A stretch of DNA of 54,891 bases, from contig QOUO01000011.1 in the NCBI GenBank assembly GCA_003862195.1, forward strand, positions 1-54,891. Reading direction: 5' to 3'. Position numbers and translations under genes: made by a program. Below are positions 19,254 through 24,368 of the stretch, piece after piece. Under the pieces are notes generated by a model that made no database searches, was not told the DNA's origin, and saw nothing but the letters and a program-made list of their open reading frames with translations. Source of the DNA: Coriobacteriaceae bacterium. GTDB lineage: Bacteria > Actinomycetota > Coriobacteriia > Coriobacteriales > Atopobiaceae. How positions within the stretch are numbered: the stretch's first letter is position 1; every line of letters begins with the position of its first letter.

Positions 19254-20528
19254 GTGGGCGCCGAGAGCTGGGAGGGGCGCTTGCACGCGGCCGGCGCGCA
19301 GGCGCTCTACGTGCACGTCCCCTTCTGCAGGAGCAAGTGCGCGTACTGCGACTTCTCGTCGTGGGCCACGCGTGCGGACGACCCGCTGGTCGCGGCGTAC
19401 GCGGCCTCGGTCGGGCGCATGCTCGCGCAGGCGGAGGCCGCGGGGCTCCTCGAGGGCTGCCGGACCGGCTACCTGGGCGGCGGCACGCCCACGCTCATGG
19501 GGTCCGCGGTCGGCGGCCTCCTCGCGCGCATGGCGCCGCACTGCCCGCGAGAGCTCTCCTGCGAGGCCAACCCGGACTCGCTCGACGATGCCACGCTCGC
19601 GGCCATCGCGTCCAGCGGCGCAACGCGCGTCTCCGTGGGGGTGCAGAGCACCTCGGACGCGGAGCTCGCGGCGCTGGGGCGCATCCACACGTCGGCGCAG
19701 GCGACGTCCGCCCTCAGGCGCGCGGTGGCGGCCGGGCTCGACGTCTCGTGCGACCTCATGTGCGCCATCCCAAGGCAGGGCGAGAAGAGCTGGCGCCGGA
19801 GCCTCGACGACGTGCTGGCCGCGGGCGTGGGCCACGTGAGCGTCTACCCGCTGCAGATCGAGGAGGGCACCGCCTTCGGCCGCCGCTACGCGGTCGGGGA
19901 CCCGGCGTTCAACTCCGAGGACGTGCAGGCCGCGCGCATGGCGCAGGCCGAGCACGCGCTCGCGGCGGCGGGCCTCCATCGCTACGAGGTGGCGAGCTAC
20001 GCGCGGCCGGGCAAGTCCTGCGCGCACAACCGCGCATACTGGACGGGCGTGCCGTACCTGGGCCTGGGCACCGGGGCCTCCGGCATGCTCGCGGCCGAGG
20101 GCTACGCTCATCTGCGCGCCGTGGCGCCGCAACTGCCGCCCGCACCCGAGGACGCGGCCCGCGTGCGGCTCACCGTCACGAGCGGCAGGCGCCAGGTCGC
20201 GGCGGCATCGGGCCTTGCGGGGCTCGACTTCGACCTCGAGTTCCTGACGGAACCCCAGGCCGCGGCCGAGGACCTGATGCTGGGGATGCGCCTCACCGAG
20301 GGCGTGGCGGAGGGCCTTCTCGCCCATGCGCGGAGCGTACTCGGGGCGGGCCGCGTGGACGGCGCCCTGGCGGAGGCCGCGGCGGAGGGCCTCGCGCACG
20401 CGACGCCCGCAGGCGGCCTTGCGCCCACGGAGCGGGGGTGGCTCCTGGGCAACGAGCTCTTCGGCCTCATGTGGGGCCTCGCGCCCGGCACGGTCGCGAG
20501 CGCGAGCGCGCGGGCCACGGGCGCCTGA
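19254..20528 (+). CDS. hemW: HemW-like radical SAM protein (heme chaperone)
   Basis: This radical SAM protein of the HemN/HemW group is thought to insert heme into apoproteins rather than oxidise coproporphyrinogen. The 424-residue protein starts at GTG 19254. It has YVHVPFCRSKCAYCDF with cluster cysteines Cys25, Cys29 and Cys32, the GGGTPT loop, and VSVGVQS. It also has CAHNRAYWTG, the HNxxYW motif typical of HemW. The HemN-specific extra N-terminal cysteine pattern is absent. It sits beside lepA and dnaJ, a common Gram-positive arrangement. Confidence 0.92.
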   Translation: MGAESWEGRLHAAGAQALYVHVPFCRSKCAYCDFSSWATRADDPLVAAYAASVGRMLAQAEAAGLLEGCRTGYLGGGTPTLMGSAVGGLLARMAPHCPRELSCEANPDSLDDATLAAIASSGATRVSVGVQSTSDAELAALGRIHTSAQATSALRRAVAAGLDVSCDLMCAIPRQGEKSWRRSLDDVLAAGVGHVSVYPLQIEEGTAFGRRYAVGDPAFNSEDVQAARMAQAEHALAAAGLHRYEVASYARPGKSCAHNRAYWTGVPYLGLGTGASGMLAAEGYAHLRAVAPQLPPAPEDAARVRLTVTSGRRQVAAASGLAGLDFDLEFLTEPQAAAEDLMLGMRLTEGVAEGLLAHARSVLGAGRVDGALAEAAAEGLAHATPAGGLAPTERGWLLGNELFGLMWGLAPGTVASASARATGA

Positions 20529-20682: not shown

Positions 20683-21804
20683 ATGGCAGGAATGGACGAG
20701 AAGGACTACTACGCGATCCTGGGGGTCTCCCCTGACGCCTCGACGGACGAGATCCGCAAGGCCTTCCAGCAGAAGGCCCGCAAGCTCCACCCCGACGTCA
20801 ACAAGGCGCCGGACGCGGAGGAGAAGTTCAAGGAGGTCTCGGAGGCCTACGCCGTCCTCTCGGACGAGCAGAAGCGCAAGCGCTACGACGCCATGCGCTC
20901 GGGCTCGCCGTTTGCGCAGGAGGGCTACGGCACCCCCTCGTACGGCGGCTCCGGGCAGGACCCGTTTGGCGGGTACCCCTTTGGCTGGGGCTTCCCGTTT
21001 GGCGGGACGGGCTACCGCAGGGCCACGACCACGCGCTCGCGCGCGTACAACCCCAAGGCGGGCGCGGACGTCGTCATGCAGCTCGACCTGGACGACGAGA
21101 CGGCCCGCAAGGGCGTGAGGCGCGGCTTCACGTACCAGCGCTACGTCGCGTGCGACGTGTGCCACGGCACCGGCTCCGTGCGCAGCGAGCACGCGGAGAC
21201 CTGCCCCACCTGCGGCGGAACGGGGCGCATCAGCCTCGACCTCACGGGACTCTTCGGCTTCGGCATGATGGAGATGGAGTGCCCGGAGTGCGAGGGCGTG
21301 GGCAAGGTCGTGGCGGACCCCTGCGAGGCCTGCGGCGGCTCCGGCCGCGTGCTCTCCGCGAGCGAGGTCGTGGTCGAGGTCCCGGCCGGCAGCCATGACG
21401 GGGACGAGGTCCGCGTCAAGGGCATGGGCAACGCCGGCACCAATGGCGAGTCCTCGGGCGACTTCGTGTGCCGCGTGGGCGTCGCTTCGGAGCGCGTCAA
21501 CCAGCGCCAGGCCATGGGCATGCAGACGCTCGGCTTCCTGATCCCGTTCGTGGTCCTGGGTGCCATCACGGGCACGCTCTCGGCCATGCTGCCGTTCATT
21601 CTCATCATGGCCGCGGTCTGCGCGTACTCGCTCTATCGCGGCGGTGGGCTCGGCAAGAGCAAGACGTGGTGGAAGCACGCCGGAACGTCGGTCGCCAACG
21701 GAGCGGTCTCGGGGCTCCTGCTCGCATTCCTCATGGTGCTCATGTTCAGCTGCGGCAGCGCCAACTACGGCTACTACGGCTACGGACCGGGCGCAAGAGG
21801 GTAG
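20683..21804 (+). CDS. DnaJ-type cochaperone with C-terminal membrane helices
   Basis: This is a J-domain protein expected to stimulate a DnaK ATPase at the membrane. The 373-residue protein has a complete J domain (residues 8-70, HPD at 36-38) and a Gly/Phe region ([14 protein letters not shown]). Four zinc CxxC motifs lie at about 157, 174, 200 and 214, followed by the start of the substrate-binding domain ([19 protein letters not shown]). After [11 protein letters not shown] the normal second beta domain is missing. Two or three hydrophobic segments (about 283-322 and 337-357) replace it, and the tail is [12 protein letters not shown]. The J and zinc parts are intact, so it is not simply a broken gene. 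A canonical dnaJ follows 81 bases later. Confidence 0.88.
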
Positions 21805-21827: not shown

Positions 21828-21846
21828 GCCGCCCCGCGTGGGCGGC
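21828..21846 (+). terminator. Weak terminator-like hairpin between the two dnaJ-type genes
   Basis: GCCGCCC (21828-21834) pairs with GGGCGGC (21840-21846), followed by TCTTCGTG. The U-tract is poor, so read-through into dnaJ is likely. Confidence 0.45.
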
Positions 21847-21885: not shown

Positions 21886-23088
21886 GTGGCAACAAAGGAC
21901 TACTACGAGGTGCTCGGCGTCGAGCGTGACGCGGATGCCAAGACCATCAAGCGCGCGTTTCTGAAGAAGGCGCGCAAGCTGCACCCGGACGTCAACAAGG
22001 CGCCGGACGCCGAGGCCAAGTTCAAGGAGGTGAACGAGGCCTACTCCGTGCTGTCGGACGAGCGCAAGCGCGCCAACTACGACCGCTACGGCACGGCGGA
22101 GGGCCCGGGCGGCTTCGGCTCGGACTACGTGGACATGTCGGACATCTTCGGCGGCGGCTTCGGCATCGACGACATCTTCGACTCCTTCTTCGGCGGCGGC
22201 AGACAGGGCGGCGCCTCGGGTGCCGCGGCGCGCACGCGCGGACGCGACATGGGCATCACGCTCAAGATCACGCTCGCGGAGGCCGCGGCGGGCTGCATCA
22301 AGACCATCGCCTACGACCGCCTCGCGCCGTGCGACGACTGCAACGGCACGGGCGTGGCCGAGGGCGGCCACGTCAAGACGTGCGAGAAGTGCCACGGCAC
22401 GGGCCGCGTCGTTCAGGTCCAGCGCACCATCTTCGGCCAGATGCAGACCCAGACGACCTGCCCCGACTGCGGCGGCACCGGCAAGGTGGTCGACAAGCCG
22501 TGCGAGACCTGCGAGGGCCAGGGCCGCACCCCCTCGCGCGAGACCGTCGACGTCGAGGTGCCGGCGGGCGTGCACTCCGGCCAGAGCCTCAGGGTCAAGG
22601 GCAAGGGCGAGGCCGGCGTCCGCGGCGACGCGTCCGGCGACCTGGTCGTCCGCATCGAGGTCGCGGAGGACAAGACGTTCCAGCGCCAGGGCGACGACCT
22701 CTTCTGCCGCGTGAGCGTCGACTCGCTCGAGGCCATCGTGGGCGCGACCGTCCACATGGACGGCATCCTCGAGGGCGACGACGTCGTGGTCGAGGTCCCC
22801 GCGGGCTGCCGCTACGGCGAGCAGATCCGCATCGAGCGCATGGGCATGCCCCGCATGGGCACCACGGCGCGCGGCAGCCTGATCGCCGTCGTGGAGGTCG
22901 TGCCGCCCAAGGGCCTCACCCCCGACGAGCTCGAGGACATCCGCGACATCGTCTCCTCGCGCCGCGACGCCAGCGCGTCCGAGCAGGAGGGCGAGAAGGA
23001 CGAGGCCCCGCACGCGGAGGCCGGTGCCAACGCCGAGCCCAGAAAGCCCAAGTTCAAGCACCGCGGCCGCCGCAGCAGGTCCAAGTGA
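21886..23088 (+). CDS. dnaJ: Chaperone protein DnaJ
   Basis: This canonical type I Hsp40 delivers substrates to DnaK. The 400-residue protein has the J domain (HPD at 33-35), a Gly/Phe region with SDIFGGGFG, and four CxxCxGxG zinc repeats (CDDC, CEKC, CPDC, CETC). It has both beta-barrel substrate domains and a charged disordered tail after EDIRDIVSS. The start is GTG 21886 with GGTGGGGGAA upstream; an upstream in-frame start lacks conservation. The tail contains a copy of the 13-mer read as GEKD. hrcA and grpE are not adjacent. It overlaps the next gene by 4 bases. Confidence 0.96.
22989..23001 (+). repeat. Copy of the 13-mer GGGCGAGAAGGAC in the dnaJ tail
   Basis: It encodes Gly-Glu-Lys-Asp in the non-conserved charged tail. 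The following residues (EAP) match those after the copy at the Era N-terminus (26428). Confidence 0.7.
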
Positions 23089-24368
23089 GCGGGGCCAACG
23101 GCGCGCGCGTCGCGATCGTCAACCTCGGCTGCAGGGTCAACAGGGTCGAGGCCGACGTCATAGCGGCCGAGCTCGAGCGGCACGGCTGCAGGCTCGTGGG
23201 CGAGGACGAGGCGGATGCCATCGTCGTCAACACCTGCGCCGTCACGGGCGAAGCCGAGGCTAAGACCAGGAAGACCGTCCGCCACGCGGCCCTGCGTCCG
23301 CAGCGGCCGGTCGTCGTGGCGACGGGCTGCGTCGCGAACCTCTTCGCGGACGAGCTCAGGCAGCTGGCGGAAAACGTCGTCGTGCAGGGCAACAAGGCCG
23401 CGGTCGCGGCCACGGTGCTCGAGCGCCTCGGCATCGCGGGGGACGCGTCGTGCGCGGATTCCGTCGTGAGCGTCACGCCCACGCCCACCGGCCGCATGCG
23501 CCCCGGCATCAAGATCCAGGACGGGTGCGACAACCGCTGCACGTACTGCATCGTGTGGAAGGCGCGCGGCAGGTCGCGCTCCATGGATGCGGCGGAGGTC
23601 GTCTCGCGCGTGCGCCAGAGCGTTTCACGCGGCGCGCGCGAGGTCGTGCTCACGGGCATCAACCTCGGGCGCTTCTCCGCCGTGGGGGAGGACGGCGGCA
23701 GGGTCTCGCTACCGGGGCTCCTCGACCTTCTCCTCAGCAAGACGGACGTGGAGCGCATCAGGCTCTCGTCCATCGAGCCGCCCGACGTGACGGACGAGCT
23801 GCTCCGCACCATGGCGGCCGGCGGCGAGCGCGTGGCGCCGTTCCTGCACGTGTGCCTGCAGTCCGGCTGCGACGCGACGCTTCGCCGCATGGGGCGCGTG
23901 TACGACACGGCGTTCTTCTCGGGCGTGGTCGACCGCGCGCGGGAGCTCGTGCCGGGCATCGCGCTGGGGACGGACCTCATCGTGGGCTTCCCCGGCGAGA
24001 CGGACGCGGACTTCGGGGAGTCGCTCGCGTTCTGCGAGCGCATGGCCTTCGCCAAGATGCACGTCTTCCGCTACTCCAGGCGTCCCGGCACGCCCGCCGC
24101 GACGGCGCCCGGGCAGGTCGACCCCCACGTCATCGCGGAGCGCGGCCGCCGCATGCGCGACCTCGCCGCACGGATGCGCCACGACCAGGCGGGCGCCCAC
24201 GTGGGCGCCGACGAGCTCGTCGTCGTGCAGTACCCGGGCCGCGGCGTCACGGGCGGGCTCTTCGACGCGCTGGTCGACCCCGCCTACCCGCTCGACTCGC
24301 TCGTGCGCGTGCGGGCCCGCGCCGTCCTGCCCGACGGCACGCTGGACTGCACCACGCAGCCCGCGTAA
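23085..24368 (+). CDS. mtaB: MtaB: tRNA t6A37 methylthiotransferase
   Basis: This radical SAM methylthiotransferase converts t6A37 to ms2t6A37 in ANN-decoding tRNAs. The 427-residue protein has the MTTase domain with [11 protein letters not shown] (Cys16), VNTCAVT (Cys51) and ATGCVANL (Cys near 82) for one cluster. CDNRCTYC (Cys148, 152, 155) binds the radical SAM cluster, and a short TRAM-like C-terminus follows. The NLGCxVNxxE signature distinguishes MtaB from MiaB and RimO, both of which also occur in this window. The GTG start overlaps the dnaJ stop, the same neighbour as in Bacillus subtilis (dnaJ-...-yqeV). Confidence 0.94.

Follow-up and report, generated by a model that had tools for sequence, protein, structure and literature searches.

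A DnaJ-derived protein of Coriobacteriia with predicted membrane helices in place of CTD2 and the dimerization domain

In the window, the whole 54,891-nucleotide stretch of DNA analyzed here, we identified a gene for a predicted membrane-anchored J-protein that we call J-TM (20683-21804; this and all features below lie on the forward strand). J-TM is likely an integral inner-membrane J-protein that derives from a duplicated class A DnaJ in the Coriobacteriales and brings DnaK to the cytosolic side of that membrane. Its domain content, its break point relative to DnaJ, its lineage-wide conservation, the purifying selection acting on it and the predicted helical bundle with its polarity were all obtained by computation, and from these we infer membrane insertion, DnaK stimulation and the class of clients.

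Domain content and the break from class A DnaJ

The J-TM open reading frame, which has homologues in many genomes, encodes 373 amino acids followed by a stop. The protein begins with a J domain (residues 8-69, 20704-20889; Pfam PF00226, E 2.9e-26), the HPD motif of which (residues 36-38, 20788-20796) is unchanged in 65 of 65 aligned relatives. A Gly/Phe-rich linker, predicted to be disordered (residues 73-122, 20899-21048; pLDDT below 50 for residues 78-122), leads into CTD1, the first beta-sandwich domain (residues 130-276, 21070-21510), as placed by Pfam, AlphaFold2, a fold search and pairwise alignment. Inserted in CTD1 is a zinc domain with four CXXCXGXG motifs (residues 157-221, 21151-21345; PF00684, DnaJ_CXXCXGXG, E 6e-14), and all eight of its cysteines, as well as most of the J domain, are invariant among the 65 relatives. 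The first-pass annotation of this DNA had described the J domain, the Gly/Phe region and the four zinc motifs as intact, and it was right on each; the canonical class A dnaJ that it placed 81 bases after the J-TM stop is also there (21886-23088, 400 amino acids, GTG start).

This neighboring DnaJ passes the NCBI equivalog model DnaJ_bact (TIGR02349) with 386 bits, whereas J-TM, at 245 bits, stays below the cut-off of 377.2. Pairwise alignment of the two proteins gives 46% identity for residues 7-276 of J-TM and no similarity beyond, so that the break at residue 276 coincides with the end of CTD1; the Pfam DnaJ_C profile is likewise matched only up to position 81 of 152. Alignment and the AlphaFold2 model agree that CTD2 and the dimerization domain are both absent and that membrane helices stand in their place. 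The replacement of the second substrate domain by such helices had been noticed at first pass, but the loss goes further than was claimed and includes the dimerization domain. A fold search with J-TM matched DnaJA2, S. pneumoniae DnaJ and Ydj1, and the best 50 matches were to DnaJ domains only. When J-TM tails were searched against Pfam for a known membrane family, only DnaJ_C and scattered weak matches were returned, the best of the latter being DUF6404 (0.007, three of 25 tails) and DUF6773 (0.013, one tail).

Class A J-proteins consist of a J domain, a G/F region, CTD1, a zinc domain, CTD2 and a dimerization domain (PMC12799103). J-TM has the first four of these parts, including the four-motif zinc domain inserted in CTD1, and lacks the last two; it is thus derived from class A without being a full member. 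It also falls outside class C of the DjlA/DjlB/DjlC type, since it has a G/F region, a zinc domain and CTD1 in addition to its helices.

Membrane topology and possible function

The AlphaFold2 model, built with 65 relatives, has a pLDDT of 82.5 overall and of about 94-97 across most of the membrane part, with the G/F region disordered. It contains three helices, in agreement with hydropathy: helix 1 (residues 274-296, 21502-21570), helix 2 (residues 299-319, 21577-21639) and helix 3 (residues 327-362, 21661-21768), which starts with an interfacial Trp-Trp pair before entering the membrane. Each exceeds a pLDDT of 90, and the "two or three" hydrophobic segments counted by eye can now be set at three. 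The loop between helices 2 and 3 (21640-21675) is positive, with a mean net charge of +3.0 over residues 317-334 and acidic residues nearly absent from 324-334, and ends in the conserved Trp-Trp (329-330); the turn between helices 1 and 2 is uncharged. The positive-inside rule thus predicts a cytosolic location for the J domain and the helix 2-3 loop and an external one for the C-terminus. The outer end would carry a variable Gly/Tyr-rich tail (21754-21801), delimited by sequence comparison. This tail, reported at first pass, is present here but does not define the family, as it occurs in some members only, ranges from 6 to 26 amino acids and is poorly conserved.

A variant form fits this topology. 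In one sub-lineage (L201, L203, L205, L210 and L213-L215), a fourth hydrophobic helix, terminating in Arg-Arg, takes the place of the outer cysteine and the tail, and AlphaFold2 places the helices of this form at residues 264-287, 289-308, 316-345 and 347-370. Four helices would return the positive C-terminus to the inside, as expected if the three-helix form ends outside. Together, the conserved hydrophobic helices, the charge pattern and the four-helix variant strongly support, by computation, the membrane tethering proposed at first pass, and J-TM is predicted to be an integral membrane protein with its J domain in the cytosol. The hydrophobicity of helix 1 is no more than moderate (hydropathy-window average of about 1.5-2.0), and a turn of a few residues joins it to helix 2, so the two could instead form a re-entrant hairpin.

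In the mechanism that we favor, a class A DnaJ would have been duplicated in Coriobacteriales and its CTD2 and dimerization domain replaced by the three-helix bundle, inserted with the N-terminus in and the C-terminus out. The J domain, G/F linker, zinc domain and CTD1 would then face the cytosol, where the J domain with its HPD motif would stimulate ATP hydrolysis by DnaK at the membrane, while the zinc domain and CTD1 would capture unfolded segments there, for instance those of nascent or damaged membrane and exported proteins. The DnaK recruitment suggested by the first-pass annotation is backed by the invariant HPD motif and J domain, and the invariant HPD motif, together with a constrained CTD1, is consistent with both recruitment and client capture. 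Among close pairs of J-TM sequences, pN/pS was 0.15 for the J domain, 0.22 for CTD1 with the zinc domain, 0.47 for the membrane part and 0.61 for the tail, and among the canonical neighbors it was 0.09 for the J domain, 0.22 for CTD1 and 0.27 for CTD2 with the dimerization domain, ratios that are rough given the high G+C content and the divergence. Judged from these sequence comparisons, J-TM is under purifying selection; its front end appears to be constrained much like that of a working DnaJ and its membrane part more weakly. The faster evolution of the membrane part counts against the mechanism that we favor.

It is possible, though we would not call it likely, that J-TM is a dedicated co-chaperone, in which the bundle binds one particular complex, such as a transporter or the Sec/YidC insertion site, and CTD1 is no more than a remnant or spacer, so that the protein acts in the manner of DjlA or DjlC and not as a generalist. 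The conserved positions of the membrane part (G284, P288, W329-330, G340 and C357) suggest packing or a partner, DjlA is reported to regulate a specific efflux pump in Caulobacter (PMC10754441), and DjlB and DjlC are tail-anchored (PMC8215388). However, constraint on CTD1 and the zinc domain as in a generalist DnaJ is not expected of a mere spacer, and no gene for a membrane protein is conserved next to J-TM, its neighbors being hemW, dnaJ and mtaB.

A Ser-Cys pair (residues 356-357, 21748-21753), located by conservation and pattern match, stands at the predicted outer end of helix 3. Cys357 is found in 97% of the first 48 J-TM sequences, directly preceded by Ser in 87%. One could imagine that J-TM is a distinct, lineage-specific type of J-protein, with a class A front and a polytopic membrane rear in which embedding replaces CTD2 and dimerization, and that the outer Ser-Cys is modified in most members, either lipidated or serving as an external contact or sensor; we regard this as rather improbable, but the Hsp70 system would then be wired to the outer face of the membrane. 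Still less do we expect lipoprotein-like processing, with Ser-Cys acting as a lipobox, the Cys lipidated by Lgt and the short tail perhaps cut free. A PROSITE lipobox-like residue pattern fits the site in 51 of 65 sequences, and helix 3 has the right orientation, with its N-terminus inside. Nevertheless, a lipobox normally ends an N-terminal signal peptide and this site ends the third C-terminal helix; the residue before the Cys is Gln in a sister species of the same genus and Lys, Met, Thr or Asn in others, and the four-helix sub-lineage lacks this Cys. A disulfide-linked dimer through the outer Cys was also considered and is less likely, as a search for VKOR alone found it in none of eight genomes.

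Distribution, gene order and ancestry

Each of the 111 genomes sampled from the window's own family, Atopobiaceae (f1), has an essentially full-length J-TM homologue in the same frame, with E-values of 1.6e-79 or better, and so do 60 of 61 genomes of a Collinsella-type family (f3), the sixty-first (G383) holding an interrupted copy with unknown bases near by. Two of three genomes of a third family (f5) also carry the gene, one of them twice in tandem. In that genome (G357, L070:1498-3924), the tandem pair lies upstream of the canonical dnaJ and is identical except for the first ~100 bases, which may reflect a recent duplication, gene conversion or an assembly effect. Families f1 and f3 most likely correspond to Atopobiaceae and Coriobacteriaceae. 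Among the best 80 of 212 relatives are Olsenella, Parafannyhessea, Tractidigestivibacter, Thermophilibacter, Atopobium and Collinsella, and nearly all of these 80 are assigned to Coriobacteriia, the rest bearing broader labels such as actinobacterium. The search for the same architecture across Coriobacteriia that the first-pass annotation called for thus returned it in most genomes of three families.

Of 396 genomes sampled across the phylum, only those of f1 and f3 matched the C-terminal J-TM model over its whole length; the other matches listed extended no further than roughly its first half, which ordinary DnaJ also has. Elsewhere in the sampled class or phylum, the matches thus appear to be ordinary DnaJ only. 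Relatives in the genome collection were recovered by an alignment-based scan, a single-sequence scan having given no match, and the J-TM tail as sole query recovered almost no relatives (4/140) because it diverges fast. An apparent loss of canonical dnaJ in Olsenella phocaeensis (G044) was rejected, the gene being broken by unknown bases at an assembly gap.

In nearly all loci of sufficient length, the gene order is hemW - J-TM - (hrcA) - dnaJ - mtaB, whereas genomes without J-TM have hemW - hrcA - dnaJ; in the window, gene-order comparison places hemW at 19254-20528 and mtaB at 23085-24368. A GC-rich, terminator-like hairpin (21828-21846), identified by consensus match only, separates J-TM from dnaJ, so the two genes need not share a transcript. 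Seven f1 genomes contain hrcA and J-TM together, with hrcA between J-TM and dnaJ where the order could be read (G019 and L172 from the loci; G012, G016, G020, G021 and G060 from coordinates), which indicates that J-TM entered upstream of hrcA and that hrcA was lost later. The Atopobiaceae-type genomes that keep HrcA are a minority, and their copy is divergent (L117, L172 and L186; f1 genomes G012, G014, G016, G020, G021 and G060). Since hrcA is absent from most J-TM genomes, the control of heat-shock genes there must rest elsewhere.

This pattern bears on a further reading that we find unlikely, in which J-TM senses membrane stress or regulates the DnaK pool: it would hold DnaK or DnaJ at the membrane, release it under stress and so feed heat-shock repressors, a role that would have gained weight once hrcA was lost. 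J-TM sits in the hrcA-dnaJ gene cluster, and hrcA is missing from 45 of 52 f1, 18 of 18 f3 and 3 of 3 f5 genomes tested and present in 15 of 15 f2 genomes. However, the seven genomes that keep both genes, the absence of hrcA from f4 and f8 genomes that lack J-TM as well, and the absence of any DNA-binding or sensor domain from J-TM all speak against it. Because of the same seven genomes, we also rejected the idea that J-TM is a substitute for hrcA.

A maximum-likelihood tree of the region common to DnaJ groups all 28 membrane forms in one clade with support of 100, in which f5 branches outside f1 and f3, matching the tree of canonical DnaJ. The single clade and the position of f5 indicate a single origin of the gene, older than the split of those families, followed by vertical inheritance. 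That J-TM is a frameshift, chimera or pseudogene, for which nothing speaks beyond the odd architecture of one sequence, can be dismissed: the frameshift near 21480 and the confinement to one genome named at first pass are both ruled out by 65 relatives that read across 21480 in the same frame and by ~170 sampled species that share frame and architecture, the gene is under apparent purifying selection, and a search of all frames of the J-TM tail and spacer DNA for a CTD2 relic gave nothing above chance.

Relation to known J-proteins

Class A J-proteins such as bacterial DnaJ and yeast Ydj1 contain, like J-TM and in the same order, a J domain, a G/F region and CTD1 with an inserted zinc domain, but they go on to CTD2 and the dimerization domain where J-TM has three membrane helices. 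Ydj1, DNAJA1 and DNAJA2, also of class A, are attached to membranes through a farnesyl group and serve to deliver proteins there (PMC9798423). They resemble J-TM in that the membrane anchors a front end of class A type, for J-TM by prediction; however, Ydj1, DNAJA1 and DNAJA2 keep CTD2 and the dimerization domain and have a lipid anchor in place of the predicted helices. By analogy, Ydj1 and its human relatives would be the nearest functional parallel to J-TM.

DjlA, DjlB and DjlC combine a cytosolic J domain with an inner-membrane anchor, as predicted for J-TM, but have neither the zinc domain nor the CTD1 that J-TM possesses. In DjlA, the anchor is N-terminal and the J domain C-terminal. DjlB and DjlC have a C-terminal anchor and resemble DnaJ in the J domain only (PMC8215388). 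Sec63/ERdj2 is a multi-helix membrane J-protein that works with Hsp70 at the membrane (PMC9798423). Unlike J-TM, its J domain is lumenal and lies between membrane helices, and it has no class A substrate domains.

The genome of the window encodes two other J-proteins: a zinc-less CbpA-type protein at a contig edge, and a class C protein of 355 amino acids (L004:1435-2502, contig C74) with a J domain near its N-terminus, several hydrophobic segments and no zinc domain. Together with canonical DnaJ, these bring the J-proteins of the cell to four, among which J-TM would be a specialist. The open-access literature that could be searched, which does not extend to the large J-protein surveys of Barriot 2020 and Malinverni 2023, yielded no account of membrane helices joined to a class A front end, and priority for this architecture is not certain.

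From a biological perspective, J-TM keeps CTD1 and the zinc domain but not CTD2 or the dimerization domain, so that the roles of the two pairs can be told apart, and it serves as a natural experiment in which parts a J-protein of class A needs. Proteostasis at the actinobacterial plasma membrane is, to our knowledge, poorly known, and here two whole families, including the common human gut Collinsella and oral and vaginal relatives of Atopobium, have fixed a gene whose product would keep the DnaK machinery at the membrane.
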